From contig OZ017752.1 in the NCBI GenBank assembly GCA_963969365.1, forward strand, positions 310,001-374,000: a stretch of 64,000 nucleotides of DNA. The letters run 5' to 3'. How positions within the stretch are numbered: position 1 is the first letter of the stretch; each line of letters starts with the position of its first letter. The notes beneath the pieces were generated by a model. It saw only the letters and a list, made by a program, of their open reading frames with translations, searched no databases and was not told the DNA's origin. The DNA is from Asterochloris sp. CNOR1 (lineage: Eukaryota; Chlorophyta; Trebouxiophyceae; Trebouxiales; Trebouxiaceae). Shown here piece after piece: positions 1-64,000 of this stretch. Made by a program: the position numbers and the translations under genes.

Positions 1-3000
1 AGGCCTGCGGTCTGCAGCTGCTTGTACCCCTCAACGCTCACAGCCGCCACCCCCAGGTCCGCCGGCGCCAGCATGTCAAACAGCTCTTGCTGCAGGTTGT
101 CCCGCTTGTCCGGGGCCACACACACCACCTGGTGGGCCAGGCTGTACTTGAAGGTAAACTTCATCTGCGGCTGATCCAGGGTCAGAATCACGCTCAGTGG
201 GTGCACCTGCAGGGGCACATGAGGCACACAGTCGTGGTCCAGGACAGCTGCAGCTTCAGGGCTGGGGCTTGCACATCAATCAACAAACTCTGGGCTGGAT
301 TCAGTGCCATGCTCAGGGAGGCACGTGGCCTGCAGAGGCACATTCATGCACTGTCATGGCTTTGAGCAGCTTCAGATACAGGGCTTGGGCCTGCACAAAG
401 CACCAACATGCAACCTTTCTGTTGAGTTCAATGTCACAGCTTCACATCAGGGGTTGGGCCTGCACAAAGAGGCGACAGGCATATTTCTGTCTGGGTTGAG
501 TGTCATGCTCAGGCAGCGGGCGCCTTCATGGCCCAGGATATACACAGTTGCGACCAGGGACTGCTTCAAATCCAGGGCTTGGGCCAGCATAATGAGGCAA
601 AATGCATACTTAAGGCTGGGCCTAAAGTCACGGCCTCAACTTGAGGGCCTGGGCCTGCACACAGGAGCAATATGCGTGGAGAGCTTTGCTTTCAGAAATC
701 AGGTCTGGATTGACATGCAGGTCAGCAGAATCTTGCAGCACGAGCAGTCTAACGGGGCGCTGCCGGAATACAACCCAACATGTGAAGGTCTACATAGCAT
801 GGTTGCAGAAAAGCATGGCACCAGTCACCTCCACAGCATCAGCTCGCGCATCAGCTGCATCCTCAGCAGGGGTCGCAGCATCCTCAGCAGGAGCTGCTGG
901 CCCAGTGGGCACCTTGCGCCGCTTGGCTGTCCTGCCCTCTGCTGCCTGCAGCACGAGCAGGAGGGGCATGTTTTTCCAGGCAGTTGGCTCAGCAGCGATG
1001 TATACTTGCCCCATGCAGCGCTGCTTGTGCATGCACACCCAAGGGCAGTCGTGCATGAGCGACGGGCCAGGCAGCATGCTGCGCCCTGTTATCAGCATCA
1101 GGTGCACACAACTGCGCAACACAGCAGGTAGCCCTTAAAAGTCCTCTTGGCTGCTATCGATGCCGCCACATGATGTAGTATTGCCTCGAGCAGCACCATG
1201 CGCTTCCCCACCACAAAGCAGTGTAGTCAGCATCATGTGGCCGCACAGCAATTCCATGAAGGCTGACAATGCAGCAGAACAATGATGGCTTTCTGGTTGC
1301 ATGATAGCACCGTGGAGAACAGGCAAGCACAGCCATACAGCAGCTCCCCACCTCCACAGCGTTCCCTGCCACTGCCATAGCGTCCTCATAGCTGCCCTCA
1401 ATGCTCACGCTGAATGCGCTGCATGCCAGTGTCTCGCTGCACACCATGCTGAGGTGGGTGTACAGAACATACAGGGGGATGGGCAGCAGCTTGACTGATG
1501 GAGCCTCTGCTTTTGCCTGCAGGACGGCACGCCCAGATCTGGAATTCTCAAGAGCAGATGGGCACAGAGGATACAGCACATAGAGCGGGGTGGGCGGGCG
1601 GCAGTTTAAGGAGAAGGGCCTCCGCCTCGGCCTGCAAGTCAGCAGAACAGGTTACTTTGAGGCAGGCGCACAGCACACACAGCGGCTGGACAGTCGGCGC
1701 CTCTGCGTCAGCCTTGGCGGGCAGACCAGCAGATCATGTCAGCCATGCTGCCACTTGCAGGCATGAGGGCAGCACAAGGGCTTGTGTGCTAACATCCATG
1801 AATGAAGAGCATTGTGAGCCTGCAACCCTGATTGATGCTTGGTCACCCAGCAGCACCTGCCGGATAACACTGTCCCAGCTGGTCACTCTCCAGTGAAAAC
1901 TTGACAAGCTGGTTGACACCAGTTCTTGCACATGTCAAACAGTGGGAGCACAAGGCACACCCAGCAGTGGCATTGACGTTGCCTGCACAATGCAGCCATT
2001 GCCATCCAAAGGCCTGGCTGTGTCTCTCAAAAGCAGCCACGTAGCCAGCCGGGGCAGTCACCTGTAGCGTGGGGCGCTTCAGCTTCTCCCGCATGGCATC
2101 CGAGACTGCCGTCATATTCTTCAACTCGTCCACCAGCTGCCGTGCACGATCCCGCTTCCCTGCCAGCACCTTCCTCTTGGCCGAGGCCTCAGCCTCCAGC
2201 GCCTTCAGCCGTGCTTGCTCCTGCAGGTGCACAGGAGGCTGCAAGGGTCACCGAGCTTGCAGGGGAAAGCCATGGCTGCAAAGCCGGATGTCACACTTGT
2301 AGCTGGGCTTGCTTCTGCATCGCAGCACATGTCACAAGACAGGAGGAGCATCCACAACCAGCAGCTCGTCTGGGCCAAGGCCTCAGCCTCCAGCATCCTC
2401 AGGGGCGCTTGCTCCTGCAGGTGCAGCAATGCCAGCAAGATTCACCAAGCTGCAGAGGGGGAGGTTGGGGGCAGGGCAGCACCCTCCCCTTGGCTGAGGC
2501 CTCTGCCTCACCACCGTCACCATGTCAAAATTGTCAAAAGCATGGAGGACCAGCAAGCATGGGCAGAGGCCTGCCCCCAGTGCATATGACCAGACTTGCT
2601 CCTGCAAAGCCGCAGATGCAGCAGATGCACCGAGACGGCAGAGCCATTTTCATTGCCTGCTCCCTTGGTTGCAGCCTCTGCCTCAAGCACATCTGGCCAA
2701 GCATCCTCCTGTGCTAGAGGGGAGGCAGAACTCGCCATGGGGCCCTGCTACAGCAGGTGCATCACCTGCCAGCAGATTCAAGCGTCATCAGGCCGCCAGG
2801 GGTTGGGGCGCCTCAAGCAAGGCTCAACATGTACTTTGCCTCTAAGCGCAGGCAGGAAATGTGGCACCATCCTACACGTTCCACAGTACAGGAGTGCAGG
2901 GGGCCGTCAGCAGCAAGCTCAGCAGCAGCCTCTCGCTTGCAAGACAGCACAGCACTGCCCCCAAGCATGAGTACTTGCCAACAACAAGGCAAGCCGTGGG

Positions 3001-10428: not shown

Positions 10429-13400
10429 TCAATTCTGCTCCTTCTCCATCTTGTCCATCATCTTCATCTTCACCTGCAGAACGACAGGTATCAGTCAGGC
10501 ATTGGCTGCAGAGCACGTGCTACCTAGATGTGGTGGGCAGGTCTGATGTCTGAAATCCCCATAACCAACGTTGCCATAACATACAGATTGCGGTTCACAT
10601 CAGGCATCATGGGACCAAGTATGCAAGCCCACCTGCCAGCCGTCGCGCACATACTGCTCACTGTCCGGTGCAGTGTTCTTCCAGGATGGGCGCGACTTCA
10701 TCTCCTCATGCCACTTCAGAAGGTGGCTCAGCTTGTCGCTGGGCAGCTTGTACCCCTTGATCTCATCTGCACCAATTCTGCAGGCACAGTGATGATTTCA
10801 GGCCAGTCTGCTGTGTGTCTTGTAAGCTGCAGTGTAGGTGGTGTGGTTCAGTGCGTGACATTCGCCCTGCATCTCATCATTGCCAATGCTGCAGGCAGAG
10901 CGGGTCTGATGGGCAGATCAGGCTCAGCTGCAGCACGGGCGGATCTCTGGGGCTGAGGTGACAGAACTGCAGAAATCAAGGGGTACAAGCTGCCCAGCAA
11001 CAAGTCGAGCCACCACAAAGTTGCAGCGTGGTGATCCCAGCGCCCCAAAAGCTTTATCCTGTTCCAAGATGTTCAACACCATCTGTCAGAGCAGAAGCAA
11101 CACAGATGATTGCATTTACTATTTCCTGCAAAGAGCAGCTGTGCCAGCTGCAACTGGCCACTTCCATACAGCTCTGGGTAGAATCATCTAAAGGCAGCCA
11201 GCTTTCACCCAAAACAGCAGCCTGGACCCGCCAGGTGGGCTCTGGCTGCTGTTTTAAAGGTCCAGGTGGGGCTGCCACTCCCTGTCAAGCAATTGACAAC
11301 AAAACTTAGACAAAGCAGCATCTGGACACCAGAGGAAGCTGGCTAACTGTCCTACCTGGACATTGTTCAGCTCTGCGCACAAGTCTTGGCACTGGGGTTT
11401 GCCCTCCAATGACAGCAGTGACTCCTTTATTGCAATGTCCAGTGAAACTGCTATACCAAACGGCGGGCTCACGTCTCACCTGACATGGTTCAGCTGGGGC
11501 GCCAGCCTCAGGTCTGTGGCATTGGGGCTCTTCCCACCAATATAGGGTCCGCCGTGCTCCTTCAGGTAGCCATCGATGCCCTCAAGCTCGCTAAGCAGCT
11601 CGCCTTTCTTCTCATCCTCGTCCTTGCCTGGCTTGCTGCGCATGAAGCCCATGAACTTGGGCATCAGCTCAGTCCCCCTGCAGGCAACAGGAGAAAGATG
11701 ATTGAGACAGATGTGTGTATTGCAACATTGACTGAGCCAGCAGCGGCTGCAAGACATTCCCAGCTTGTACATGGCTGAGACACATGTATGTATTGTAACA
11801 TTGACTGCGCCTTCAGGCAGTCCCAGGTTGAGCCAGCAGCAGTTGCAAGACACTCCCAGCACATACAGGGCACTCACACTTGAGGGGTGCTGTCTGGGGT
11901 CCCAACCTTCTTGCCATTCTCCTGCTTCTCAGTGATCTCGCCCAGGAATTTGTCAGAGTCCCCCATCCACTGCAGCAGGGCACAATCATGGAAGGTGAGC
12001 CTTGCTTATGACGACTGCCACTAAAGCTGAGCAGGCGCAGCCGTGGTCAGGCTCCTGTTCATAGATTTGAACACAGATTTGAACACAGAGATTGCTGCTG
12101 ACCATAGCTTCAAGGTTAATGTGCAGCCCAATTAGGCCTGCTCATTTTTGGAAAGGCAACAAAGACCTACGGCCAGATATGCAATCCAGTGCTGCTGCAC
12201 AGCTGGCTGTTGATGTGTCCCCAAACAACAAAACTGAAATGCAGGGCAGTCCTCACCTTGTCGGAGGCCACCTCATGCACAAAGGGGATCTGCTGCTTGC
12301 CCTCCAGTCCTGGCACCTGCACAGGAAGCAGAAGGCTAGTGTGGGTTCGGCCCTGCTTCTCTAAGGAAACAAAAACACAAGATGCCATTTCAAGCAGCCG
12401 CACAATGTCAGGCGGGCAGGGTCCTCCTGCACACCAACTGGCATGCACCAGCAGGATCTCAGGCAGGCAGCCTTGCTATGCATCGTGATTTGTTCCCTTA
12501 AGAAGAGCAAAGGTGATCTGGGGGTTTCCCACACACCTCCTTGATCCACTCAGGCATGTTCTGCTCGTCAATGTAGTAAGGCTTGTACCTGTGTGGGACA
12601 AGCACCACTTTGAGGTGAGGGAAAGTCACCTGTCACCAGCGTTGCAACTCAAAAAATGCAACATCAATCTGAGAGTTTTGTGCATGTTGAAGAAGAAATG
12701 CAAATGGCACTCACTTGAGGCCAAGCTCCTCGAATGTCATCATGGATCTCTGTAGCGTAAAATGGGCAATGTCAGCACACTAGCAGATAGATGCATGGCA
12801 GCAATTAAACAGTGTCAGCGGTGGCATGTCCATGCAGACACGGCACAGACCCTGCCGTGCAGCTGTTGCAGACGATGTGTGAGGCAGGCATGGGAATGTG
12901 GATACGATCCCAACAATGCCAATCCAGCATCAGCCTAGTGTGCCCTGAAGCACACCTGGGAGAAGGGGCAGTCCCCCAGCTTGCCCTTGTCTGACCAGTT
13001 GTTGCCTTTGTCAATGCCCTCAGGGCTACCCTTGACCCAGATCTCGTAGTCAGTGCCTGCAAAGCAAGTGCATCACATTGCACGCCGCTACATAGACATG
13101 GAGGCTAGCTACACGCAGTTGGTGGCGCAGCAAGGAGCGGCACAAAACAGCCAAGCAGGCCACAGTACAGAAGAGCCAAGCAGGAGGTTGGCAGGACTGT
13201 ATGCACAAAGCTGCACAATTGTGGCCTACTGAAGATATGCAGGGCCTGCACGCACAGACTTAATGCAGGACATGCAAGCCACAACCAACATATGAATGCA
13301 GGCTGCTGGTTGCAGGCAGAGCTGCAGCCCTTGATCCTGCCGATAATATGGACAGATGTGGCGCGCATGCACAAGTGTGGCATACTTTTGGACGACTGGC

Positions 13401-18000: not shown

Positions 18001-21000
18001 CCAGAAAGTGCCTGACTTGATATGTTTCCCATTGGCTAGCATGACACCCCACACCTGCTGTGCAGCAGTGAACTTCACGTCCATGGGCGCACCTTGATCT
18101 CTGCCTCCTCTACACGCTGCCCCTGAACATCCAAGTAGCCCTGCTGCTTCAGCTGATCCAACTGCAGCAAGGGAGGATCAAATAAATTTTTCTGTGTCTG
18201 TTCCGCTCTGTAAAGGCGTGCTGCTTAACGGGGCTGACAACTAGTGGTGTTAGAGCCCAGCGCCTCTCCTTTGGGACAGCAGCAGACTCACAGCGCTGCC
18301 CAAAACTGCTGATGGGTGTGTCAGGCTGCAGTAACCCTGACTTGGGAGATGGGGAGGTGCTAAAGCCTTCCTGGGGGCAACACAGTTGCCAGGCTCTGCC
18401 TTCTGGGTTGTGGCAGTCCGATTGCTGACGTCCATTGCACCGAAAGGGGTACTCACCTGCGCAGGGCCCAGCGCCTTGATGGCCTTCCCCACAGGGCCCA
18501 TGTCCTTGCCCAGGCGCTGCCCCAGAGCACTGAACACGGGCTCTGCGCGGGTGCTGCAGTAGCGCTCGGGGTCGCTGCAAGTTTTGAGGTCACGCACATT
18601 GCCCTCCTCCAGAACATAGTCCCTCAGCTTTCCTGCACACAACTCAAGAAGCTCATGTGGAGGAGGCTGATTTTGAGGCAAAAGGGCGTCAGCAAACACA
18701 GGGCCATCCCTTCTTGTAAGGAAGACGCTGCAAGTCATCAAAAGGGAGAGCCGCACTGTTAATCATGCAGAGTTTCAGCATACAATGTTGCAGCTGCCAG
18801 ATGGTGCCAGACAGGGTTGAGTGCATGCTAAGTGCATGTCAGCAGGCTCTTGTGGAGATGTGCGCTGTTCTGCCGGCAGAGGGGGACACATGCTTGGGGC
18901 ATGCCACCAGGGTTGGGTGGAGAGCTGCTCTGCAGGCAAAGGTGTTGCCAATCTGGGCCGCGGGCAGGCAGTGTGTGTGGGAAAGGTGGCCAGCTGTGGC
19001 TAGGCTGCTCTGTGTGCCGGCAGGAGGGAGTGAATACATGCAGCAGGGGCCAGAGATTGAGCTGCACAGTGCAGGGACAGCAACAGGCTTGAGTCAGCTG
19101 TGTGCCACATCTTGACCAGGGTCTGCAGATGGGCTGCATGCTGCTGTGTGTCACACAAGGAGATTGGACTTTGTGGCTTTAGGAAATGCAGAATCAGCCC
19201 TGAAGGGCCAGCCTGGCACTGCTCACCTGAGATGTCTGCCAAGAACGATTCGTCTGTGTGCACCACTGTCAGCTCCTTGAGCGGCTGCTTGAGGGGCTTG
19301 TTGTGCTTCTCCCTGCAGCAAAGGGCGAAGCAGGGTCTCAGACCCACTGCCAAGCAGCGGCAGGCACCCAGAACAGTGGCAGCTTGTGCTCTAAGCTGAC
19401 GTGCTATGTGGCACATGCAGCCATGAATGAACTCAGCAGCACAGCCAGAACTTTGTCCAGAAATGCGCGATCGGCTCTGCATGCAACCTGCGCACAGTGG
19501 ATGTGAGAGGAGCAGTGCATGTGGCCAGCTGACCAGCCAGTCTGGCAGCACTCAATTCACAGGCACAAACAAGGCACCCATGTGAAGCTTATGTATGCCA
19601 AGCATGTACCCCCAACCTGATCAGCCGGACATGCTCAATCACGCTCTGCATGCGTTCCACGCTTTGCTGGATGTGCTGGTCCCCCGCGTGGGCAGCTTGT
19701 GCCGCAGGGAAGTCGCACCAGTGCACAGACTGGGGAGCTGAGGGCGGCAGGCAGCGCCGCAGGTTCTGGTACATCATCTCCGTGAAGAAGGGGGTGAATG
19801 GGGCCATGACCTGCAGGGGTGAACAGGCGTGTTGCTGCCAGGACTCGGTACATTGTCTCCACGATGAAAGGGGTGAATAGGACCACATCATCTGCAGGGC
19901 TGAGGGACAGTATGTTGAAGGGACACTGCAAGTCATCTCTTTGAAGAAGGGAATGGCCAGAGCCGTGACCTGCAGAGAGACCACGCAATCTGGGAGAGTC
20001 ACTGACCTGCAAGCCTGGCTGCAATAAGTTCAAGCAGCAAGTCACATGATGATAAAGGCCAAGTGCAGTTCCCTATGCTTCCTGCCAGCAAAGGCCGCCT
20101 TGCAGACGGTCAGCAGCATGGTGTGCAAGGCCCTGTCTGGACACAGCCCGTAACGTCAGCAAAACACTGATTGCCTCTCAAGGTCTTCTCAGGGCCTCAA
20201 GCCTGTGTTTGCACCCCACTGGCTGACAGGGTACCACTTTGTACACACATTGCTGCGCAAACCCTTGATCAGCAGGAGCCGCTGCTGGCCCGCTTTAGGG
20301 ACATGTGGTGCAGCAAGACCCCAACACTCTGCTTGCCACAATTGCAAGGTCCCAGCTTGCTGACCATCAACGGCACGCCTGCAGTGCTGTGAACATGTCT
20401 TCAACAACACCTTGGCTCCCTGAGTCGCTGCCGACTCGCTCAGTGGACACCTGTGCTGGCGAACCCCTTGCAAGGCCGCAGCTGACTGCAGTTCACCACA
20501 TCTGCAGAGGCCCACCTTGCAAACTTTCAGTAGTACATCAAACAGCGTCCCTAGGGCCATCAGGGTGTCATCCACGCCCTTGGCACCCTTGAGGCGCCGC
20601 CGGTTGTATCTGACGTAGATGTTGGTCAAACTCTCAATGAACTTGACCAACATAGGCACCACCGTGTACACCTTGTAGGCTGCCATCTCCTGGGCCACAA
20701 AGATGGTCAGAGAGCGGGCTGCTGCGCTGACCCAGCAGTCTAGCACATTGGTGGCCTGGTGGACGTCCACCTGCAGATTTCAACAGACGGAAAGGTGTCA
20801 GCAGTGATGTCTATTTTATCTTGCATGGACTCAGGACTGTGCTCTGATCAAGGCTTTGCCTTGGAGATGTGAGCTGTCTGTTACGCAGTCATCGGAGCAG
20901 AGCAGCAATCTGCTGCCAAACAGGCCTGAACCTGACTGCGTCTTTCTGTGTTTCTGTGAATGATAATGTGACATTTTCAAAAGTTCTTGCATGCCACCCA

Positions 21001-40322: not shown

Positions 40323-40395
40323 GCAGACGCCCGTCGGCAGGCAGGAGCTGTCAGCTTACATTGCATTCTTGCTACCCTGTTTCCCCAGAGCAGTA
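40258..40395. repeat. Tandem duplication of the EngB 3' end
   Basis: The stretch at 40259-40320 (ctggcaggcaggagctgtca, gcttacattgc) is repeated at 40334-40395 (tcggcaggcaggagctgtca, gcttacattgc), each ending in agagcagtag. The period is about 75 bp and the second copy is beyond the stop codon. Confidence 0.92.
40356..40360 (-). terminator. Possible TGTAA signal of the flagellar gene
   Basis: The plus strand reads TTACA inside the duplicated EngB tail, giving TGTAA on the minus strand 151 bp beyond the stop codon of the convergent gene (40511). A second copy of the pentamer is at about 40281-40285 in the EngB coding exon. Confidence 0.45.
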
Positions 40396-40510
40396 GGAGT
40401 GCGCCTGCTGGCAGAGATGTCGTTCCCCGCCTTGCTGTTTGATCATTTCATGCATTTCATGAATGGACTGTTGTGCAAGCTGAATGCTGAAAGAGGCGAG
40501 CGCTGAGGCG

Positions 40511-46483: not shown

Positions 46484-46647
46484 ACTGCCGGGCCAGATGC
46501 AAGTGTGTGTGGGGGCCTCCTGACGTTGGCCAGCTCAGTTTGGCAGATACGAACGCATGGACATTGACCTACCACATCGGACCTGTGGAGGAAGCTGTTC
46601 ATGCGCTGCCTCATGTGATCAGAGACAGAATTGGCAGCCCGAAAGCA
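46484..46647. promoter_or_regulatory. Bidirectional promoter flagellar gene / ABC transporter
   Basis: Only 164 bp separate the two start codons. No clear TATA box is visible. Confidence 0.5.
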
Positions 46648-49600: not shown

Positions 49601-52600
49601 AGCAGCCTTTGCGGAGAGGGCTGCGGCACAACCGCCAGCTGAACCTGCCGTCAAGCAGTGTGTCATCTGTGGCTGCAGGAGGGTGGCTTCCTGGCGTCCC
49701 TGGGCATGCAGTGCCAGACGGGTTCATGCATCTACAACACCACCTCTCCCCAGCCAGGTGACTGCACTCAAGCAGCAGCTGTGCTGTGGCTCAGTCTGGC
49801 GGCTACCAGTGCCGGATGGCCCAATGCCAGTCCGTGGTGGCTGGTGCCTCTAGCATCCAGCGAGGTGTTGCAAGTGCCATGCGAAAGACATGCACGGCTC
49901 CTCTGCAGGCAACCACCCTGACTCATCAGTTCGGTATCGATGCATGCAGCTGGTTTATCGGGTGTTGGATCATCTGTATCGGTGAACACTCAAGACAATG
50001 ATTGTGGCATCTCCAAATCGAATCTGTGTCTGTCAGCTTACCTGTTTGACTTGCCTGATAACAGTGCTGATACAGCATGGAGACGGCCTGCCTGATATTG
50101 CTGCTGTGCAGCACCAGATATGGCCATGTTGCTTTGCTCTGGTGCAGGCAGACATCACAATCAGGGTGGTAGCTCAGCAGCAAAGCCTGCCCGTCTGCAG
50201 CATTGCGGATGCTCAGCCACTTGGCCACTGCCAGCTTGTCGAGGGGAGGAGCACCCTGACCTGTGCAGGCAGCATGGCGCTCACTGATGTGTGTGAGAAA
50301 CCCTAAACCCGAAAGCCCCTGCGTGCCTGCAGGCCCGCCAGGCCCCCTACCACCCCTGCCCCCCAGCCCACCGCCAGCCCCAGGCAGGGAGCACCACGAC
50401 CTGGCCGCAGAGCTGGTCACGCTGATTGGCATCGGCGCCATCGTCAGCGGGGCCATTGCCATGGCCGTTGTGGCCATCTACACTGATAGCCAGCGCTCCC
50501 AGAAGCGCATCCAGGCCTGGGCTGACGGTGCGTCAACATCTCTGAGCTACAAAAGGCTCAAGTGGCACTTGTGTTCCCAGGCTGGCAACAGCTGTCGCCT
50601 GGCACTGCTCTTGTGGACCTGGTCACCAACTGCTTTGTATGCACCCTGACGCTGTGTGTGTGGCCCAGGCAGCTGTTCATCAGAACCTTTGTCATACCGG
50701 GCGTGACCTCTGCAGCTCACTTAGAGCATCGGTCACCGTCTCTGCCGGCAGCGCAGATGCAGATGCTATCCATGCATGTCATGCTGCATGCAGGCAACGC
50801 GGGGGGCGGGGATGGCGTCTCACAGGCTCTGCTGGCTGAGTCAGAGTATGAGGGTGAGATCGTGACCCTGCAGCCGGAGGTAGAGGACCCCTCAGTCTTG
50901 GACTGGGAGAACATTGGCGTCTGCATCTACAAGGTGGGTGCCGTGTGTTGGCTTCACAGCAATATAAAGTTGCCCAGGCAGGTGTTGGCATGTGTTGGCT
51001 GCTGTCGGCCTTGCTTTCAGGGCAGCCCTGCTGCGCCTCTGTGCAGCGCCTCCTGCCCAATGTGGCACTCAGCGCTGCCAGACCTCAACCATGCTTGTTT
51101 CACTGCACCTTCTATTGTAAGAGGACAAACAGCTGCAGAGGTTGGGCACATTGCGGACAGCTGCTGGCTGCCATCTGTTCCATGTCATACTATGTTCTGG
51201 TTCGTTGCCTTCCAGCTTGCCTGAATGGCCAGACCAGATGTCGTTATTTTACCTTCTGGCTGCAGGCAAACGGCCAGAACCTCCAGGTCCTGTCCGGCAT
51301 CTCAGGCATCACCAGGATTGACGATCCATCCAAGTCAGATGCTGCTGCCTGCATGTGCGCCATCCTGGGACCATCTGGGGCAGGTTTGTTGGTGCGCGCA
51401 TGGGTAGCAAACATGATGTCTGCTCATTTCCCAGCACCCAAAACATGCTGCACTCTGCATGCGTCCCATCCTGGGGCACCTTAGCCAATATTGCTGCCCT
51501 GCATGGCCCCTGTATAGGCAGACAGCATGCCTCTGACACTTCTAGCATCCTAGTGGCAAGCTGTAGCCTGCATTGAGGTCGTCCTGGGTGCCTCGGCGCA
51601 AGTGTGCTGTGCTGTGCATGGCTGCCAGCATGCTGGAATGATCCAAACATCATTGCGCATACCATGCTCTTTCTGTTTGGCATGCTGCTGGCTGAAGCTC
51701 ACGAGGTCCCACGTGCAGGTGACTGTAACCCCCAAACTGCTGGAAAGGCTGCTCTGCAGGTGCACTTGCGCGCACCCTGCCTGAGCCTGCTAGACTGCTG
51801 GTCTGCCTGCCATTCTAGTGCTGCTGTATGCATGCTGCCTGCAAATGCTGCAGGGTAGGGCTTCTCAGGAGGGGCAGCCAAATCTACAGCCTCATGCCCT
51901 AGCATCTTTGACTGCTCTGCCAGTGCCACTGTGCGCATCCTGCCTGCAGGGAAGACAACGCTGCTGGACGTTCTGGCAGGCAGACGGTCTGGCCAGGGGG
52001 TCACCGGGCGCATCCACATCAACGGCAATCGCGTGAACTCACACCAGCTACGCGACAGTATTGGGTGAGGTCCACTGCAGGACCCACTGGACTCTCATCC
52101 ACCTGTCTCCTGCAGTGTTGACGTTGGCAGCATGTGCATACTCTTCAAGCCCTGGCCTGTCTGTAATCGCCATCGAAACCTCAGCAGCACAGTTTTGCCA
52201 TTCAGCACCAAGAGACATGTCCAGTCAATCAGGAAGTGGTGTCACGACCCTTGTTCTCATATCAGTGTGCACGCAAGTCCTGCCTGCCCATGCGCCAAGC
52301 TCATGGACTGCCAGCCTTCTTGCAAGTTTGTGCTGTCTGCCTGCAGGTCATGTCTGCGTAATGATGTTAGTGGATGTAGCTGTCAGGCAATTCAAACTGT
52401 TTGCCTGCAGGTACGTGCAGCAGGATGACATCCTGCCAGGCACCTCCACTGTGTGGGAATACCTGCGCTTCCATGCCAAGCTGCGCATGGGGGCTTTTAG
52501 CAGCCAGGGCATAGAGCAGCAGGCCTGGTCGGTCATCCAGCTGCTGGGCCTCAGCAAGGTAGGCACCTGTCGTAGTGTTTTGTGTGCAGGGGATGTACCC

Positions 52601-55600
52601 AAAGGGCTGGGGGCCTTGCGTATGAATGAGAATGGCTTGTAGCAGCCAAGAGCATAGAGCAACTGGCCTGGTTGGTCATCCAGCTGCTCGGTAGCAGTGA
52701 GGTCAGCACCGCTAGCATCATGTTTGTTGAGGGCCGCGCAAGGTGGGTGACCATTCAGGTCATCAACAGCTATGGTCTGGCAGGCTGAGGTTGCACATAC
52801 TGTCACAGCATGGTGGCTGCCAAGGGCACTGGCCTGGACCAATCTCCTGCCCAGCTGCTGGGCCTCAGCGGGGTGAAACTTCAGGCATCACATTCACGTA
52901 CAGACTCTCTGCATCGCAGCACCTGCGTACCCAGGATGATATGTGCTGCCCAGATCCTGCCTGGCCTGACCCTGCGTTTAGCCCCGCCAACCAGATGCTC
53001 CTGTCTTGCACAAGAAGGCTCAGGCTTCAACACTGTGCACAAGAGGGTCAATCTCCTTGGCTTATGAGAGACACTGCAGCTAGCGTCAGCAGGACCCTAG
53101 AGGAGTCCATGTGATGGTGCATTTTGCAGCTTGCCAGAAGCAGGAGCATCAAGCAGTGCTGGGTTGGGGCTGGGGCTGTGCATGCTGCCTGAGCGTCTCT
53201 GTAACCTGCAGCAGCGCATAAGGGCAGGAGCGCCTGCACCATGAAAGGCGCCAGCATTGCAGCCCAAAAGAGGCCTGCGACTGCCCAAGCTTGTCCCAGC
53301 TTCATGGATGCTGTGGCCCTGACCTCAGTGTGCCTTTCATGCAGGTGGCGCACAGCCTGATTGGTGATGCCTTCACGCGCGGGCTGTCTGGAGGGGAGAA
53401 GAGGCGGCTGAGCATTGCTGCTGAGCTGCTGAGCAAGCCAAGGATTGCGCTGCTGGACGAGCCCACCACAGGTGTGGTCCCACTGTGCATGCGGAAGCGC
53501 TTTGTCCGGAAGCCAAAGCGCTGCACGGGGTGCTTCACTGATCACCACACCTGAACCCTGCCACATGAAGATGCAGTGCAGCGTTAGTCATCGTCCGGGA
53601 AGCTGCAGCATCTTGTAGGCTGCACATATAGCACGCTGTACACTGTCTTTGCTGCGCCAGGCGTGCGTTGACTGGCCCTGCCAGGGTTTGCACAACCAGC
53701 TAGCCCTTGAGGTGTGACCTCACGTACAGGCTTCTCCTTGCCACAGGCCTGGACAGCAGTAATGCTGCAGCTGTGGTGGACATCCTCGCACAGCTGGCCA
53801 GCAGCGGCACCACAGTCATCCTGTCCATACACCAGCCACGCCCAGACATTCTGCGGCTGATGACTCGTATGCTGCTGCTATCCTCCAATGGCCAGGTGGG
53901 GGTCACCGCAATGTGTGCTAATTGGCGCATGCTTCCAATCTGCTGACCTCCAGAAGGAAGGATAGGCTGAATATTGCTACTTTTGGCTGCCTTTGCCTGC
54001 AGTTTCCGGTGCGTGGTATTGCCAGCAGCTGACGCGCAGTCCTGGCATCACCCTGCAAGGGGCATTCTTTGCTGATCTTCTGTGCAGTGGGCTGTCTTTT
54101 TACAGTTCTGCAGGTGCCTGTCGGCCTCTCAACTGCTTCTGCATGATCATAGGCGTCATAAACATCATGTGCCCTACAGTCTTGTAGCGTAGGTGGTCCT
54201 CTCTGGGCCCGCGCTTTAGGCTGCAGGGTTACAGACAGCCTGTGCTGTGGATTCATCATCACATTTTGCCACTCAATTGCTGCAGCTTCTGATAAGTCAC
54301 CCTCAAAAGCTGCCACTGAGAACTCACTCTTGACTTTGCAACTGCTGCCTATAAATTCAGGTGGTCTACTCAGGCCCCATGGCGGCGGCTGCAGCCCACT
54401 TCCGACAGCAGGGCTTCCAGCCTGACAGTCTGCGCAGCAACATTGCCGACTTCATGCTGGATCTGGTCATCAAGTCTGGGGACGATCAGGTGTCCCAGCT
54501 GATCCACGAGTTTGCAGGGTGAGCAGGGCTGCCTCCTTTGGGGTGTAGCCCCACCTCAAGTCATTCATGCAGACAGCCAGCACTGAGCATCCTTCCTGTT
54601 GCTGACTTTTTGACTGGCTGGCTAGGCCCATGAGCTAGCTCTTGATAACGTTTGCAAGTTTTCTAGTCAGGCTGTGGCCACCACATCCTGAGGGGCGACA
54701 CTATGCTTACACACCATCTGTGTGATGGTGCACCCGTCGATGTGATGCAACAGTATGTTGCTTGGAGCCGCGGAAGGTTTGCTGCCTACTGGAGGCTTCC
54801 AGAGGCCAAAGTGCCACAGTAAGTTTTGGCTACAGGTCTCAGATTGTTGCATCAGACCGAGAGGCTGCTGGCCTCTTGAGGGAGAAGCCACGTTCGCTGC
54901 CAGCTCCGCGGCCTCAAGGCCCCTTTGGCCTCCAGCTGAGGGTGCTGTCTACTCGCATCATGCGCAAGCTGTACCGGTGAGCCCACGGCTGGCTGCTTGA
55001 CCAACTGCAGACATGTGGAGCCACTGCCTTGCCATCCAGCTGAGACTGCTGTCATTCCACTACATGCGCAAACTGTACAGGCGTGTCAGGGCTGCCTGCT
55101 TGAACACAAGTAGATGTTTTTGGGGTACCCACTGAAGTGCTTTGCCCTCAGCTGCTGGGCATATAAAAAGAGCCTGGCTCACCATGCCAGGCCAGTTGAT
55201 GGCAGTACCGAAGCCGCTTGCAAACTGACTCAGGGTGCAATGCTGCTGCAGGCACCCCTTCCTCATTCTGGTCAACTTCATTGCCACCCTGGTGACTGCC
55301 ATCAGCCTGGGCCTGGTCTTCAGAAATGTGGGGGTGGACACACCTGGCATCCAGAACAGGTCAGGCTGGGCAGCAGCTGCACAGCTCCATAAGTGCCTCT
55401 GTCATAGTCACATGTGGAATTTCGTTCACAGCACGCAGCTGCACTTGAGCCTCTCTAACAGCGCGCAGCTGCATGTGGACCTTTGTCACGCCCGCACTTG
55501 CCTGTGGGCCTCTGTCACAGCCACAGCGTTGCTTGTCAGCAGCAGCTGTGTGACATGTGACTGAATGGGCCATCTGCAGTCTGCTGCTGCACCTTAGAGA

Positions 55601-58600
55601 GCAGCCATCTTTGGCAGGCAGCATTCCCAGATGACAGCTGGCCTGGCCCCACTATGGGTCAGCCAAAAGTGCAGAAGCTTGGCCTGCAGAGTCAAGCAAA
55701 CGCTCCCTGCACCTGCAGGCTGGGCTGCCACTTCACATGCTGCTCTCATTGGTTCAAACACATGCAGCTGTCCCATGTGCAATGCCTGCACCAGCAGGCT
55801 GGGCTGTCACCTCACATCGCTGCTGTCATTTCAAGCTGTCCAGCCGTCTCGAGGACATGCTGCCTGCACCTGCAGGCTGGGCTGCCTCTTCACAATGCTG
55901 CTATATTTGTCCATGATGAGCCTGAGCTCCCTGGCCCTCTGGATGGAGGATCGCCTGCTCTTCATCAGGCAAGCACCTGCCTCAGGAACATCTGTCTGTT
56001 TTGCCCTGATGTATGCCCTATGGCTGGCTCCTTGTGGTCATCTATTTCAGTGCCCACAGTAGTGCGATTACAAGCACTAGGTGGCCAGGCACAGACAGCC
56101 AGGCATGCTTGTTGCTGGTGCAGCCTGCCTGCGCGTATGCTGGCGCCATTGCATATTGCCCCTGAAAGACATGCAGCAGCAACCCCACCTTTCCATGTAA
56201 GCTTGGTGATCACCACAATCCAGTCTGAGCAGACCCTTGCCCAAAGATGCTTTATGCCACCCGGCTGTTTGACACGGCTGTTTCCCTCAAGATGATACAG
56301 CAGCAAGGAAGCTTGTTGACCTCGTCCCAACCCACCTGCAGGGAGCAGAGATCTGGAGCTATGGCAGCCCCAGCATGCTTTACTGCCACCTGGTTGTCTG
56401 ACATGCCATTCAACAACCCATGTCCCCAGCATGCCTGCAACAGCTGGCAATCCTCTCTGTCAACTTTCCCTGCAGGGGCCACCCTAGCTGACTCAATTGC
56501 TACTTTGCCTTTTGACATAGTGCCTTGCTCCGCACAAAGCTTTGCAGCAGCAAGAACCCCTCCCTCCCACCCACATGCAGGGAGCGCAACTCGGGCGCCT
56601 ACGGCACACCAGCGTACTACATCGCCACCCTGCTGTTCGACATGGTGCCCATGCGCGTCATCCCCCCCGTCTTCTTTGCCATCTTCACCTACTGGCTGGT
56701 CGGCCTGCACACTCAGTGCATCTTCTGCATCTTCAAGTTCATAGGTGAGCCGCTGAGAATGGCCACTGGGGCCGCATACATTGCATTGCTGACTGCTCAA
56801 GCCATGGATGTTGGGCATCCAATGTTTTACAGGTGAGGGCATGTGGGTCACACCTTGCTATGATTCGTCTTGGATTCAGCTGGCAGGCTGACGTTTGTGG
56901 TGTGACGCTTTGAGCTGCCTATGCTCAATGCACTGAGTGCATATCCTGGTCTAGGGTAAAGGGGGTCGTCATTATGTCAGCTTGTTGGGTCCATGAGGCT
57001 GCCTGCGTAGAGGCAGGACTGCACACTATTGCGCTGTCAGCTCCTGGTGAGGGCTCATTGCTGACGCCTGGCTGGCTGCATGCATTGGCTGCTTGTCATG
57101 CGTCCAACTGCTTTTCAGAAGCGTTTGCATGGCAGAGGCAACATGTGGCTTCCTGTGCACTGCAGTGTTTGGGTGTCCAGCGTCATGACATGTTTGCATA
57201 GGGAGACCACATGCCTGTACCTTACAGACATGATCCTGCACAGTCTGGCATGGCAGCCGAGATCTGATTATGGTCACTTTTTAATGTGCAGGTGTCCTGG
57301 TCTCCAGCAACATCGCGGCCACTGCCATGAGCCAGGCCATTGGGGCTGCTGCCAGCTCTGTGCGGGTGGCCAACCTGTTGGGCAGCTTTGCCATCATGAT
57401 CTTCCTGCTCTTTGGAGGCTTCCTGCTCAACAAAGACCAGGTGACATGAGCAGAACATTTAAAGGCCTGGGGGCTTGTCCTGCTCCTGCTATCTGGCCTT
57501 GATGTGGTGCGTCGGGCGGGCAATGCTGCGGCCTCGTTGTGGGTGATCAGGTAGCAGTATTGCTGCTGCTGTTTGACTGGGTGTAGTCATCACTGGCTGT
57601 TGTTGTAGACCTTCAAGGCTAGGAGCAGCCAAGCAATGTGCCCCCCAGCAATTGCTCATGCTACCTGCACATAGCCTTTGTGGACAGTGATCTGTGTAAA
57701 CTCCAGATGTGATCGCTGCTGCTGCCTGCTGTTCATTCCACTGGTGCACTGGTGTGTGCAGGTGCCCTGGTACTGTGGCTGGATTGCTGACCTCTCGTTC
57801 TTCAACTATGTGAGTTGTGCTTGCACCCTGAAGCAATGTTATACACTACCTTTGTTGCCTCACTACCTTCGTTGCCTCAGGGCTGCTTGGGGGCTGCTCC
57901 CTCCCACACAGAACCCTGGCGCTCACAGCTTGCTTGCCAATACCCTAGCATCTGATTGTCAGTTTTGCGATGGCACTCTTGCGGAAGAGCAGCCATGCCA
58001 CAAATGCAGTGCAGTGCAATGCCAAAACGACTCGATGACTGCTACAGGCTTATGAGGCCCTCGCCATCAATGAATTCCATAATGCACCTGTTGACTTCCT
58101 ATTCACCAGCCCTCTAAATGCATCGGTGCTGCCCACCCTGAGGGTCTCAGGTGAGCGGGTGCAGAATGCCAGGCGCATATGCAGGTCCATTACAGCAGCA
58201 ACTGGTTGCAATCAGTGGCAGCCTCACAGTTGCCTCCGTCCGGGAGGCGCCCGGTGCAGAGCTCTTCCAGGCTCGGGCAGTGCAAGGTCGTCTGCAGCTG
58301 CAGTCCTGGTGTGTTGCATGCAGGTGAAGGAGTGCTGAAGGAGTTTGGATTCAACCCCGGGCGGTTCTTTCTGGATGCGTGCGCGGTGTGGCTGCTGGCT
58401 GCAGCCTTCGCTGCCCTGACCTACTACTCCCTAGCCACTGCTGGCCTGGGCAGCCACAGTGGCCTCATGCTGTGGTGGCGACAGTGGCTGGGGCAAGTCC
58501 ACGATGATGGCTCGTCAGGTGGGCTCTTTGACCAAGACTGCTGCCACAGCATGCGGGGGTCTCTGTACGGCGCCTTTGAGTTGTGTATCGTGATGTTACA

Positions 58601-61600
58601 GCAAGTGGCTGGGGCAGATAAGCGGTGTTGGGTCCATGAGGGTAGCTTACCTGATCATCTGCTTTGAGCCTGTGCAGGACTGCCAGGCAACGGCAAACAG
58701 GCCTCCACAGGGGTGGCAGAGGACCAGCCCAGCATCAGTCCCCCAGAGGGTGCCGGCCTGGTCTCCGCAGCCAGCCTGCAGAGCAGCACAGATGGGCAGC
58801 TGCCCTCCAGCTTTGGCTCCGCAGCTCAAGCCTCGGCAGCCCATCAGGGCAGCATCCTGATGTGGCAGGATGTGAGCTGCACCGTCCGGGGCGCACGGGG
58901 GCCGCGGCGCATCCTGACCAACGTCAGCGGCATTGTGGGCATGCGCGATGCTGGGGGAGCCTTCAAGCCGTGCCTCTTTGCGGTGCTGGGCCCATCTGGC
59001 GCAGGCAAGTGTGCTGCAGGCTGCGCGTACAACATGCAATGCTTCTGGGCAGCACTGTACGCTCCTTTTGTGGCTAAGTGACTGTGCTGGCCCAGAAGCA
59101 TTGCATGTTAGCATGCACTGCGCAGGGCTTATGTCGGGGCCCTTTCTGCTTGGGATGGTGGTAAGACTGGCAGTGGCAAGTGTGCTGCAGGCTTCCTGTG
59201 CACCGGTTTCAGTGCTGTGCGCCCTGTTGTGGAGGGGTGCCTCTGCATACAGGCACCGCGGGACCTAACCTGAATGAAGTCTGCTGCGGTCATTCTGGCC
59301 CGGCTGGCTTCCAAGTTCACATCTTCTCTAGCTGGACATGTCAGGCAGCACATCGCTGGTGGCTGTCAAAGGCATCCACCTTGTGCTGCAGGCAAGACGA
59401 CCTTGATTGACATTCTGGCTGGACGGAAGCGGGACGCAGGTGAGCTGCTGCTGTATTGCTCGTGGCCGAGAGCCTTGCATCCTGTGCAGCCTGGCCTCTA
59501 CATGCTCCTTACGGCTCTGCCCACTGACTGCTTCGAAGGCTGCACAGAGTCCTGCAGCACAGAGTGCTGCAAACAGCATCCGTGACCCCTGCAATCATTT
59601 GGCACCTACTTAACACCTGAGGGAACCGACTTTCTGCTGTGGATTGTTGTGCAGGCGTGCACGGACGAATGTCCATCAACGGCCAGGCAACTGCAGCCCA
59701 TAGCAGGGCTGCCATTGTGGGCTATGTGTTGCAGGACGACCTGCTGCACGGCAGCTCGACTGTGCAGGAGTACCTCAGGTGCAGAGCTTGCATTGCCAAT
59801 GCCTGCATATTGCTTTCTGAGGTGCCCTGATGTCCACAGCAGGAGGGGGCTCGTCCCATTGACTTCCATTCTGGACAAGTGCTGAGGTGCTGGCTTGCAT
59901 CTGCAATCAACATGTGTGGGCACTGACTTGCATTTGTGTGTATGATAGGGAGCAACTGCTGGGACAACCCCAATGACCAGCAGCAAGTTCTCACAACCCT
60001 TTCATTATGTGAAATCTGACTGCCTCACACCTGCCAGCTGTGGAGAGGCTTCTACTGACTGCCTATGCACCAGGCTGCGTCACAGCTGGCTGCTTTGTCA
60101 GCCTGCCTGCACATACAAGCAGGTGTCCACTGTCTTCCATCTGCGGCATGCAGGTACCACGCTGCCCTGCGGCTGCCAGCCACGATGCCAGCTGCAGAGA
60201 GGGAGCGCCGCGTGCAGCAGCTCATTGACCAACTGCGCCTACGCAAGGTGATGCGAAAGCACACGACTGCAGCTGCTACTGTGGCATCGACGTGCTGCAA
60301 GACGGAGGCCCTTGACCAGAGACGGGCAGCAAGTGTTATGGCAGCACCTCAGCTGCAGTCACTGCTGCGACTGAGGGCCCCTGATTTTTTACGAGTTAGT
60401 TTTGCCTGGCGCTTTGACACAAAAGATGGCTTCTGCCACGTCAGAGGCTTTCTTGCATGCTGCTGCCTGTTCTTGCAGGTGGCCAACAGCCTGATTGGGG
60501 ATGCCTTCATGAGAGGCCTCTCTGGAGGGGAGCAGCGCCGTGTCAGCATCGCTGCAGAGCTGCTTACACAGCCAGGCATCGCCCTGCTGGACGAGCCCAC
60601 AACTGGTGAGGCTGAACATATGAGCCCAGACGCTCAGCTTGCATCTTGAGGTCCCTTCGCATGAAGTGCAAAGGATTGTACACGGTCTGGCAGTGGAGTG
60701 CAAAATCAAACAAAGCTCTGTTCCCATGTGGGCACAGTACCATTGCGCCTGTGCCTCGTTTTGTGAGGCTGGCCTGCTGAGCTGAGACCCTTAGGTCTGA
60801 GGGATGCAGGGCACCATACCTCTGCACTTGTGCCTGATCCTCTGCTGCCTTTGATGAACAGTCATGCCACTGCACAGCATGCACTGCACAGCGTGCGCTT
60901 ATTGTCTGGCATGTACAGCACCACTGCTGCCAGTGGAGGCAGTGCAGCTTCTGCGCCTGCTGGTCATGCTGACCACGTTTACACAACACCACCACCGCTG
61001 GTAGCGCAACTTGCCCAGACAGCTAAGTGACATTTGTCATGAGGCCATTGCAGGCTTGGCCAATGCAGCTCTGCCAGTGTCAACATGTAGTGGCACCTGC
61101 CCCCGACTGTCAGGGCTGAGGCTGGCCATGTCTTTGCCAGCGTCAACAGCACCAGCAGCTCTTTCAAAAATCCTAGCTTGTAGTTATCCACTTGGTCGTG
61201 ACTGTGCAGGCTTGGACAGCACCAGCGCTGCCAGTGTGGTGGACATATTGGCATCCCTGACACAGACAGGCACTGCTGTCCTGATCACAATCCACCAGCC
61301 ACGCCCCGACGTCTTCAACCTCATGCAGCGCGTGCTCATCTTGTCCAGCGAGGGCCAGATGGTGTTCTCAGGCAAGCCTGCTGAGCTGCGCTGCGGCTGC
61401 TGGGTCACTTGCGGCACCGCAGGGCTTCCTGCAGGAGAGGGCTGGGCTGCACTATATCTCAAGCAACCACCTGGGGCTGCACAGCCATCTGCAAATGCTG
61501 CGCAGGAACGCCACACCAGGTCTATCACTCAACTTAGCAGCGGCCAAGTTGTCTTACGCAAGCCAGCCAGCCTGCCTGGGTCACCCGTGTGTGCCTGTGG

Positions 61601-64000
61601 CAAGGCCAGATAGGTTCAACATTCAAAAACTGCCAGAAGCATCTGCCCGAGGGCCCATGTGGGACATGTGTGTACATTCCAGGGCCTGGCACAAGCACCA
61701 CTACATCCTTCTGCAGCGCACTTGCGCTGGCAGGCACAGGCGGCATGTTTCATGCTGCAGCAGACTGGGGCTGGCAGGCAGCGGCAGCATGACTGCTTGC
61801 AGTGCTGGCTGGCTTCTTGCCTGATGTTGTGGAGCACTCCTGCTGCGGTTGCAGGATGATTGTGGCCCGTGGCTATTGTCTGTGGCATGCATGTTGATTC
61901 TGGCCATTTGCCAGCGGGCAACCCCACCATAAAGCTGCCATTGCAGCCCACGCCATTATCTACATGCACCATAAGCTGCTGCAGTGCTCAGGGCCTGGCC
62001 TGGCTCCCTCAGTCTTCAGGTTCTGACCAGCAGCGCCGCTCCTATCATGGGGGCTTCAGCAAAGGAGTCATGGACAATAAATTGCCATCTATACTGCTGC
62101 AGGGCCCAAGGACTTGGCGCCTCAGTACTTCCTGACAGCTGGGTACACCCCTCCTGAGGCCTCAATCAGCATGGCAGATCACATGCTGGAGGTGGTCATC
62201 AAGGCTCAGCCAGAGGAGGCAGGGCGCCTTGTGGACCTGTTCAGGTTGGCTGCCAGCTTAGTTCCAAGCCTCTGCTGCATGTCTAGCTTTGGCAGCTGGG
62301 ACTGCCAGCATGGCTGCATGATCCTACTTCGTGAATCTCCTTTGGTCTTCACTTTTGCTTTATGTGTTTCCGGCAGTGCAAGTCGGAGGGCTGATGAGGA
62401 AGGGCGCCTCATTGGCCTATTCAGATTAGCTGCCAGCCTGGTCCCATGTCATGGCTTCATGTGTGGCTTTGGCAGTTGGGGCTGCCAGATTTGTGTCACA
62501 GTATCATCGGCAGCTCAACTCGGCATGCTGTGGCCTGCAGAGAGAGCGAGATTGCTGCCGCTGACCGGGAGGACATGGTGGAGCTGGCCAGCGCCAGTGA
62601 GGCAGACAGGTGATGCCTTGCCTGCGCCATCGGCAAGCCCTTGCTGCATTGACCTCTCCATCAGCTGCAGCCCTCAGTGCTGCCCCCAGCTTAGGGTGGG
62701 CATCTTTCCTGCTGTGCAGGGGCCTGCCTCCTGCCCGGTACAAGGCAGGCTACTGGCTGCAGCTGTCAGTGCTGTGCCAGAGGCTGGTGCGGGCCACCTG
62801 GCGCAACCCCATGCTGCTGGCAGTCAACTGGGGCGCGGCCCTGCTGATGTCCCTGGGCGTTGGGGTGGTCTACTGGCATGTCACCCGCGACACCGGCGGC
62901 ATCCAGAACCGATTTGGCAGCCTGTTCTTCATCCTACTGTACCTGGCCGTCATGAGCCTGAGCTCCCTGCCCTTGTGGATGGAGGACCGGCTGCTCTTCA
63001 TCAGGTGAGCTTCATAAGCGTTTGGCAGCTGTCATCACGTCAGGCCGTCATGAGCCTGAGCCCCCTGTGGATGGAGGACCGGCTGCTCTCCATCAAGTGA
63101 GCTTCCTCAGTGTTTGGCAGCTGTCCTCACATCAGACCAACGTGTACCAGGGTTCACGGCAGCAGGTGGTGCGCAGAACAGCATCGGTCCTGTCTGGCAG
63201 CCCGCTCTGGTCCAGCTGCCTTCTGCCTGAGCTGCATGGCCCTGTAAATGAAGCTCGCCTGCTCTGCAGCAGCACACAACCTGCAGAGGGGTCGGCTGCT
63301 GGCCCACACCAGCGTACTTCACCACATCAGCACTGTGGAACCAGCCCCACTGCCATCCATCCCACTCACTGCGAGCCGCCAATGCTGCAGTCAGCCCAGC
63401 TGAACTTCTGCCACCTGTGCAGCAGGAAACAGGTCAAGGGCCTGTCTGGCATGCACTGCCTGCTTCACTGCAATGGCAATGCCTGAAAGCAGGGGGTCAA
63501 TGTCCACTTCAGCTTTCACTCACGGTTGGCACCTGTGCTGCAGGGAGCGGGCCGCTGGTCTGTTTGGCACCCCCGCCTACTTCACCGCGATGGCGCTGTT
63601 CGACCTGGTCCCCATGCGTGTGGTGCCCCCCTGCTTCTTTGCTGCGTCCACATACTGGATGATCGGGTTCCGCCCTGGGGCCGCTTACCTGCCCTCCTTC
63701 TGGCTGACCCTGGTCCTCAGCAACATGGTGCGTGCCCGGCTGCATTGCCTGGCTTGGCGCTGGCTGCTTCATCTCCAGATGCCAGCTTCCAGCAAGTTCA
63801 GCAATCCACTGTGCATTATGTCTCTTTGGAGCCTGCCATGCTCTGAGCGCATGCTTGCCTGGTCCTTCAATGTAGCCCTCTTTGATGACATGCTGCCTGC
63901 CCAGTGCTGGTCTGCCTGCTGGCGTGTGAACGTCCCGTGCCATGCTTCTGTATGTGGATGCGTGGCTGCACAGGCAAGGCTGTGCTCCTCGCAGGTTGGG
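46648..64000 (+). CDS. Full-size ABCG transporter with Cys-rich extracellular N-terminus, partial
   Basis: ATP-driven exporter, layout ectodomain-TM-NBD1-TMD1-NBD2-TMD2. Exons: 46648-46781, 46954-47108, 47614-48281, 48590-48752, 49188-49363, 49679-49757, 50333-50527, 50794-50933, 51266-51383, 51950-52064, 52411-52558, 53345-53471, 53747-53895, 54361-54518, 54836-54976, 55252-55359, 55876-55968, 56581-56744, 57292-57440, 57762-57809, 58048-58150, 58324-58518, 58678-59004, 59392-59439, 59655-59778, 60154-60247, 60479-60605, 61210-61371, 62103-62244, 62541-62609, 62720-63004 and 63544-63727. All phases agree: 1696 codons so far. Signal peptide; EGF-like [15 protein letters not shown]; a Cys-rich region with a Ser/Gly/Ala-rich insert; [24 protein letters not shown]1: [39 protein letters not shown]2: [36 protein letters not shown]. 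Both TMDs contain [19 protein letters not shown]. Plant ABCG24/28-like members have a comparable N-terminus but are half-size. Three GC-AG introns. The 3' end lies outside; the next exon may begin at 63995. Substrate unknown. Confidence 0.9.
48700..48935. repeat. Echoes of an ABC ectodomain exon edge
   Basis: The exon edge at 48721-48755 (ggggccaagatcttgtgccc, gccagctt) recurs at about 48801-48830 (ggcggcaagatcctgtgcct, gccagaat) and, weaker, at about 48915-48933 (aatggcggcaaatcctgttg). Spacing is about 80-110 bp. Confidence 0.72.
52497..52885. repeat. Echoes of an NBD1 exon 3' edge
   Basis: The exon end at 52499-52559 (agcagccagggcatagagca, ccagctgctgggcctcagca) is copied at 52641-52702 (agcagccaagagcatagagc, ccagctgctcggtagcagtg) and at 52813-52873 (ggctgccaagggcactggcc, ccagctgctgggcctcagcg). 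There are three units in a row, the outer two non-coding. Confidence 0.88.
54940..55105. repeat. Echo of an exon edge before TMD1
   Basis: The exon end at 54944-54985 (tctactcgcatcatgcgcaa, gctgtaccggtgagc) is copied at 55045-55085 (tcattccactacatgcgcaa, actgtacaggcgtg). In the copy the donor GTGAGC has become GCGTGT. Confidence 0.85.
55700..55910. repeat. Triplicated 5' edge of a TMD1 exon
   Basis: Three units with a 78-bp period are seen at 55710 (acctgcaggctgggctgcca, cttcacatgctgct), 55788 (ccagcaggctgggctgtcac, ctcacatcgctgct) and 55866 (acctgcaggctgggctgcct, cttcacaatgctgct). Only the last continues in frame as coding exon. Confidence 0.92.
56245..56660. repeat. Echo array upstream of a TMD1 exon
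   Basis: The exon edge at 56571-56650 (catgcagggagcgcaactcg, ctgctgttcgacatggtgcc) has copies at 56335-56408 (cctgcagggagcagagatct, tggttgtctgacatgcc), 56468-56523 (cctgcaggggccaccctagc, ccttttgacatagtgcc) and a shorter one near 56247 (atgccacccggctgtttgac). Two copies keep TGCAGGG. Confidence 0.85.
62215..62480. repeat. Echo of an exon edge after NBD2
   Basis: The exon end plus the following intron at 62220-62300 (gggcgccttgtggacctgtt, caggttggctgcc, tagctttggcagctgggact) is repeated at 62401-62480 (gggcgcctcattggcctatt, cagattagctgcc, tggctttggcagttggggct). The unit is about 80 bp with a 180-bp period. Confidence 0.9.
62945..63345. repeat. Echo array between two TMD2 exons
   Basis: The exon end at 62950-63010 (gtcatgagcctgagctccct, atggaggaccggctgctctt) is repeated at 63047-63103 (gtcatgagcctgagccccct, atggaggaccggctgctctc), followed by a copied gtgagcttc donor. 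A third, decayed copy lies at about 63225-63275 (gcctgagctgcatggccctg). An echo of the next exon's start lies at about 63290-63345 (ggctgctggcccacaccagc, tacttcaccacatcagc). Confidence 0.92.

Follow-up and report, generated by a model that had tools for sequence, protein, structure and literature searches.

Worn copies of the neighboring exon edge, here called echoes, are real and common inside the introns of the sampled DNA. We consider it likely that these echoes are best explained by small tandem duplication of unspliced DNA, a largely position-blind and mostly old process whose products were tolerated by splicing and then decayed. Within this explanation, the filtering by splicing and selection and the placing of the events in the past are the parts that we infer.

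The source genome comprises 56.38 Mb in 21 contigs, and the window, i.e., the whole 64-kb stretch of DNA that was analyzed, corresponds to C7:310001-374000. The GC content of the window is 53 to 60% in 2-kb steps; a report on the lichen alga Asterochloris glomerata gives a 56-Mb genome, a GC content of mostly 56 to 62%, and nine introns per gene (PMC6652019). Our sample of 344 kb included the window and came from three contigs of the 56 Mb: the window and 200 kb around it on C7 and 40 kb each on C1 and C12. Gene models were produced with a self-trained hidden Markov gene finder, which converged on the donor CAG|GTGAGC and the acceptor TGCAG|G, with a median exon of 102 bases and a median intron of 263 bases. 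The gene products matched PDB entries for IleRS, PDI, ABCG transporters, and DHAR, and six of the eight proteins submitted to Pfam had a match (THO5, AhpC/TSA, GST, short-chain dehydrogenase, MMR_HSR1 GTPase, and ABC2_membrane); the remaining two, a presumed flagellar fragment and one small protein, had no Pfam match, and Rfam gave no match on the window. From the PDB- or Pfam-matched products we assembled a curated set of 60 introns, 59 of them with GT/GC-AG ends; within this set, the end of one IleRS exon is approximate, three of the 60 introns (at the start of ABCG half 1) are based on comparison with half 2, and intron 58151-58323 lies outside the displayed ABCG2 alignment. Echoes were tested on three levels, namely, free of annotation, on the gene finder models, and on the curated introns.

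On the annotation-free level, 188 local direct repeats (score 100, lags of 30 to 500) were detected in the 264 kb of C7, versus 5, 4, 8, and 5 at shifted lags, an excess of about 30-fold; the same lag-shifted control gave 25 versus 1 to 2 on C12 and 10 versus 0 to 4 on C1. Among 2633 queries, 209 matches were direct and 4 were inverted, the latter being background, and copying in the inverted orientation was rejected on this count. Direct matches dropped to 12 of 2629 at an offset of 400 and to 0 to 7 farther off. With the gene finder models, exon bases alone (no splice-site letters) matched their own intron at a score of ≥80 in 78 of 489 introns, versus 1 of 489 after dinucleotide shuffling of the introns, whereas random exon edges seldom reached this score (upstream, 15 of 9582 trials; downstream, 15 of 9588 trials). 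The rarity of matches to random exon edges led us to reject a dispersed repeat as the source of the echoes, and the median identity of 0.74 between copies argues against assembly artifacts. In the curated set, 23 of the 60 introns carried an echo, versus 2.4 expected from shuffled interiors (score ≥80, with ≥12 exon-derived columns), and 20 of 60 did so at a score of 100, a threshold at which 14 donor echoes, 13 acceptor echoes, and 7 intron-only pairs were counted.

These results bear out the claim of an earlier note on this DNA that the introns contain diverged copies of the exon-intron junction, and the similarity of introns to their own exons exceeds both the shuffled-intron and the random-exon control. 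The note had attributed echoes to the majority of genes, which is too strong given their presence in 23 of 60 curated introns. It had also listed EngB among the genes with such introns, but the two EngB introns tested held no echo (nor did the three SDR introns tested), and the EngB echo is instead a stop codon copied into the 3' flank. The spacing of 70 to 125 bp, extending to about 195 bp, that the note had described applies to part of the data: 65 of 223 pairs fall at 70 to 125 and 157 of 223 at ≤195, although the range is broader (median lag of 142, 10 to 90% range of 62 to 309; pairs from one array are counted more than once in these pair totals). The junctions and echoes identified in individual genes are listed in Table 1.

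Table 1. Exon-edge echoes and related repeats by gene, with positions numbered along the window
Gene	Feature	Span	Strand	Remark
THO5	Exon 1352-1516: acceptor junction 1461-1529, echoed in the intron at 1572-1644, lag 111	1461..1644	-	Pfam FmiP_Thoc5
THO5	Predicted exon-edge repeat 2154-2510 / 2348-2685, lag 194	2154..2685	-	Predicted intron, outside curated set
DHAR	Exon 10633-10777: acceptor junction 10754-10811, echoed at 10865-10931	10754..10931	-	PDB DHAR match
DHAR	Echo 11328-11427 of donor junction, exon 11480-11677 (11455-11562)	11328..11562	-	
IleRS	Intron 19811-20515: acceptor echo 19847-19975 and donor echo 20247-20433	19768..20602	-	PDB IleRS match
IleRS	Donor echo 22885-23042 of 23067-23209	22885..23209	-	
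IleRS	Around exon 23840-about 23970 (end approximate): donor-side echo 23725-23764 of 23848-23888, acceptor echo 24017-24179 of 23917-24087	23725..24179	-	
IleRS	Donor echo 25312-25462 of 25504-25658	25312..25658	-	
IleRS	Donor echo 26324-26379 of 26417-26471	26324..26471	-	
IleRS	Exon 27030-27213: acceptor junction 27173-27316, echoed at 27353-27512	27173..27512	-	
IleRS	Donor echo 28438-28543 of 28651-28755, extra copy 28315-28362	28315..28755	-	
PDI	Acceptor echo 35079-35131 of 35300-35352	35079..35352	+	PDB PDI match
PDI	Acceptor echo 36081-36139 of 36188-36245	36081..36245	+	
EngB-like GTPase	Last 63 coding bases, including stop TAG, repeated in 3' flank, lag 76, about 80% identical	40260..40414	+	Pfam MMR_HSR1; EngB name from earlier note
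ABCG half 1	Donor echo at GPSGA|GK intron (51384-51949), lag 108	51327..51948	+	
ABCG half 1	Exon 52411-52558: donor junction with two echoes, at 52634-52733 and 52823-52874	52492..52874	+	
ABCG half 1	Donor junction 54925-55042, echoed at 55029-55154	54925..55154	+	
ABCG half 1	Array of acceptor junction, exon 55876-55968; period 78-79, about 2.5 units	55702..55908	+	
ABCG half 1	FI|RER intron (55969-56580): acceptor junction with echo	56298..56644	+	
ABCG half 2	Donor junction and echo 59139-59246	58967..59246	+	Intron 59002-59391 in refined model, GC donor
ABCG half 2	TT|GLDS intron (60606-61209): acceptor junction with three echoes	60903..61278	+	
ABCG half 2	Donor junction with its echo at a lag of 179	62200..62488	+	
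ABCG half 2	FI|RER intron, donor junction and echo	62949..63135	+	Looks youngest among the aligned examples: identity of 91% over the bases aligned, with a single gap of 6 bases

The ABCG transporter gene is full-size and covers 46699-64974 and beyond; its long N-terminal part appears Cys-rich by eye, and the gene finder extended its model into an Rrp14-like domain that probably belongs to the next gene. Introns 59002-59391 and 61372-62102 are best read with GC donors (GCAAGT/GCAAGC), and half 2 then translates without a stop. A local inverted repeat of roughly 25 bases was noted by eye at about 59030-59110, inverted copies otherwise being at background. When the gene was compared with the rest of the genome, the four matches obtained were all at this gene itself, with no relatives elsewhere.

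The two halves of this gene allow introns at equivalent positions to be compared. Five intron positions are common to both halves and have the same phase, so these introns predate the separation of the halves. At three of the five, echoes occur in one half only and most simply are younger than that separation. The echo-bearing intron is longer by 555 bases at the LSK|VA position (786 bases with two donor echoes versus 231 with none) and by 329 at the TT|GLDS position (604 bases with three acceptor echoes versus 275 with none), whereas it is shorter by 21 at the FA|G / LF|R position (296 bases with one echo versus 317 with none). At the GPSGA|GK position, donor echoes are present in both halves, with lags of 108 and 172, and at the FI|RER position half 1 has acceptor echoes and half 2 a donor-side repeat. 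Across the curated set, introns with an echo had a median length of 566 (n = 23), versus 278 for those without (n = 37; P = 2.8e-5), although long introns also offer more room for matches. Together with the much longer echo-bearing intron at two of the three one-sided ABCG positions, this difference supports the proposal that introns were lengthened by local tandem duplication.

The copies are well worn. The identities of 223 pairs, obtained with a banded aligner, had a median of 0.741 and clustered at 0.65 to 0.80; only 14 reached ≥0.85, with 10 at 0.85 to 0.90, 2 at 0.90 to 0.95, and 2 above. Among the long pairs in the sample, similarity was highest at L007:3751-4136, with a lag of 65 and about 96% identity. 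In a simulation of steady births and neutral decay, 326 of 1150 pairs were at ≥0.85 (26 to 28% in three settings), versus the 14 of 223 observed (Fisher P of about 1e-14); the simulated events were single two-copy duplications scored with a global aligner, and in such two-copy cases overlap of the copies should be rare. The steadily continuing process suggested previously is therefore not supported. Since loss of young copies cannot raise counts with age, either past activity was higher or early divergence was faster than assumed. By comparison with the simulation, most of the detected events are old, at about 0.2 to 0.35 substitutions per site per copy.

Sets of three copies, which overlap one another, allowed private changes to be assigned. 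On the exon side, the original had 254, the near copy 318, and the far copy 450 of 2697; on the intron side, the corresponding values were 145, 119, and 206 of 1246, as expected if both copies mutate. The greater number of changes in the far copy than in the near copy on both sides agrees with the earlier observation that divergence grows with distance, albeit in overlapping sets that do not amount to a formal test. The 254 private changes in the exon original exceed what would be expected of a constrained exon, and exon mis-calls may add to them. A model in which only the copy mutates, or copies are born diverged, was rejected given that the original carried no fewer private intron changes than the near copy (145 versus 119) and that pure exon-only pairs were too common (31 of 223 versus 8 of 1072 simulated).

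Exon-side and intron-side identities were nearly equal per pair (0.744 versus 0.735 in 108 pairs, P = 0.33), whereas at K=0.3 the simulated values are 0.746 for the exon side and 0.676 for the intron side. The 21 curated pairs gave 0.758 versus 0.751, with the exon side higher in 10 of 21, and over all curated columns 0.768 of the exon-derived and 0.717 of the intron-side columns were identical, a small contrast in the expected direction. Among the 11 youngest mixed pairs, per-pair mean mismatches were in the expected direction (0.102 exon, 0.154 intron) but column totals were not (0.156 and 0.140). Mismatch by codon position was 0.268, 0.257, and 0.288, with the third position only slightly more diverged. 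This near equality could be due to mis-called exons, to rates that vary among intron sites, or to constraint beside exons.

The echoes are denser in the window than around it, with an exon-only match in 24 of 93 window introns versus 54 of 396 elsewhere in the sample. Repeat clusters numbered 50 in the 64-kb window out of a total of 153 over all 264 kb of C7, compared with 15 on C12 and 9 on C1 (40 kb each). Such pairs contain 22.1% of the predicted intron bases in the window and 17.6% in all of C7, 20.8% on C12, and 4.4% on C1; for predicted intergenic DNA versus predicted intron, the shares are 2.5% versus 17.6% on C7, 17.0% versus 20.8% on C12, and 6.9% versus 4.4% on C1. The note had called the apparent saturation of a whole region unusual; the window is indeed richer than its surroundings, but with clusters also on C12 and C1 it is not unique.

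In the mechanism that we favor, direct tandem duplications of genomic DNA, mostly of 60 to 300 bp, would arise along genes largely regardless of splice junctions, with the fill-in and joining of staggered breaks as the likeliest known route. A duplication across a donor would place the unit of exon tail, donor, and intron head twice in succession, and one across an acceptor would do the same for the unit of intron tail, acceptor, and exon head. If splicing still used the outermost site, the mRNA would be unchanged and the event could persist, while the inner copy would join a longer intron and then decay; selection on the exon would help old echoes to remain recognizable. Less easily reconciled with this mechanism are the near equality of exon-side and intron-side identities described above and the pairs within exons, which are no rarer than expected from random placement (5 observed versus 5.5 ± 2.3).

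Alternatively, duplication might prefer junctions, for example through transcription-, R-loop-, or spliceosome-linked breaks near splice sites, and thereby copy exon edges into introns. The junction-intron class contains 93 pairs, versus 54.3 ± 6.9 expected from random relocation, and the intergenic DNA of C7 is poor in copies. Pairs with exon-derived columns also make up 164 of 223, versus about 61% in a uniform-age, position-blind simulation (P = 8e-5), a proportion of detectable blind events that touches an exon because introns are short relative to the duplicated unit. The share of 164 of 223 is accommodated only by older-age blind runs; in such runs, purely intronic pairs account for 188 of 662 at K=0.3 and 28 of 287 at K=0.4, values that bracket the observed 33 of 223. 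Against a preference for junctions, the breakpoints lie at varied depths within the exon and do not accumulate at the splice site, and the donor and acceptor echoes counted above are about equal in number. The stop codon of the EngB-like gene was duplicated likewise, and such copying of a non-splice boundary is consistent with position-blind events of which those that the gene can tolerate are retained. The junction-targeting activity raised earlier as one mechanism is therefore not required, even though junction pairs exceed both the relocation and the uniform-age expectations, and we regard a preference for junctions as unlikely.

We consider it highly improbable that the introns themselves are duplicated exon, gained by tandem duplication of AG-GT exon segments (the Rogers model). 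Tandem copies carrying splice sites do exist, the ABCG half-1 intron 55360-55875 lacks a half-2 counterpart and holds an acceptor array, and an in-register head identity of ≥0.5 was found in 3 predicted introns versus 0.6 expected. However, mean in-register similarity was at the control level in 56 curated and 396 predicted introns, both for the intron head against the downstream exon head (curated, 0.251 versus 0.253 for the control; predicted, 0.258 versus 0.257) and for the intron tail against the upstream exon tail (curated, 0.239 versus 0.249; predicted, 0.253 versus 0.256), and the five phase-shared ABCG introns were already present before the halves separated. Since the in-register signature is at the control level, the process looks like growth of existing introns.

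Slightly less probable still is that echoes have been kept for a function, e.g., as decoy or alternative splice sites. AG is retained in 59 of 92 acceptor echoes, more often than neighboring dinucleotides (521 of 1057), but GT in donor echoes is retained no more often than its neighbors (46 of 89 versus 527 of 1021). The presence of echoes in one half only at three of the five phase-matched ABCG introns and the mismatches at all codon positions also argue against a function.

RNA-mediated copying, i.e., reverse transcription of spliced or partly spliced transcripts, can practically be dismissed: 16 of 77 matches in predicted introns pass the exon-exon joint by ≥12 bases on both sides, but the three of these alignments that were inspected read as annotation error or chance, curated echoes run continuously from the exon directly into the intron across the boundary, and curated matches to joined exon ends numbered 17, of which 14 stop ≤4 bases from the joint or short of it, 2 pass it by 8 to 10 bases, and 1 passes it by 12, exactly the limit. 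Since most curated matches end at or near the exon-exon joint, the template was unspliced, as position-blind duplication of genomic DNA would have it.

Intron length is mostly ascribed to transposons and to a slow balance of insertions and deletions. Local duplications of the adjoining exon edge can be seen in about a third of the curated introns. It is possible, although we hold this only tentatively, that a large part of present intron length stems from a wave of small tandem duplications in the past, such that introns would consist mostly of eroded local copies and exon edges would be the preserved originals that give the age and size of each event. An exon under selection can serve as a reference for reading echoes, and the rate, size, and history of intron growth would become measurable in a compact genome. 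The copies also call for caution with gene finders, which can call them as exons; in IleRS, a predicted 231-base exon at 22597-22827 lies inside an intron and is without a counterpart in the aligned solved IleRS structure.

Three known systems resemble what we describe, although the titles and abstract beginnings of open-licence PMC articles, a scope outside which most of the subscription literature lies, gave no account of junction-spanning intron copies on such a scale. Tandem exon duplication, reportedly described by Kondrashov and Koonin and by Letunic, Copley, and Bork, likewise copies exon sequence into the adjoining intron, but the copies here are usually partial, include one junction, and are decayed. 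In intron gain by AG-GT tandem duplication, the duplicated DNA also carries splice sites, as it does in the potato RdRp gene (PMC4974935) and in Drosophila cases (PMC2891723). That process makes new introns, whereas here existing introns seem to grow and the new-intron signature is absent on average; in the potato RdRp gene, an 83-bp duplication within an intron is reported to have left the gene structure unchanged (PMC4974935). Small tandem duplication is itself a well-described mutation (PMC8355091, PMC7407515): duplications arising via staggered-break repair are described as the commonest kind of short insertion (<100 bp) in the human genome (PMC8355091), and small tandem duplications were common among rice insertions in the study of Vaughn and Bennetzen, as described in PMC7407515. 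Like the echoes, staggered-break duplications are direct, tandem, and local and span tens to hundreds of base pairs. Elsewhere they are recent or induced, whereas the copies described here, too decayed for microhomology or break structure to be read, form an old and dense layer within introns, with lags often of 100 to 200 bp.
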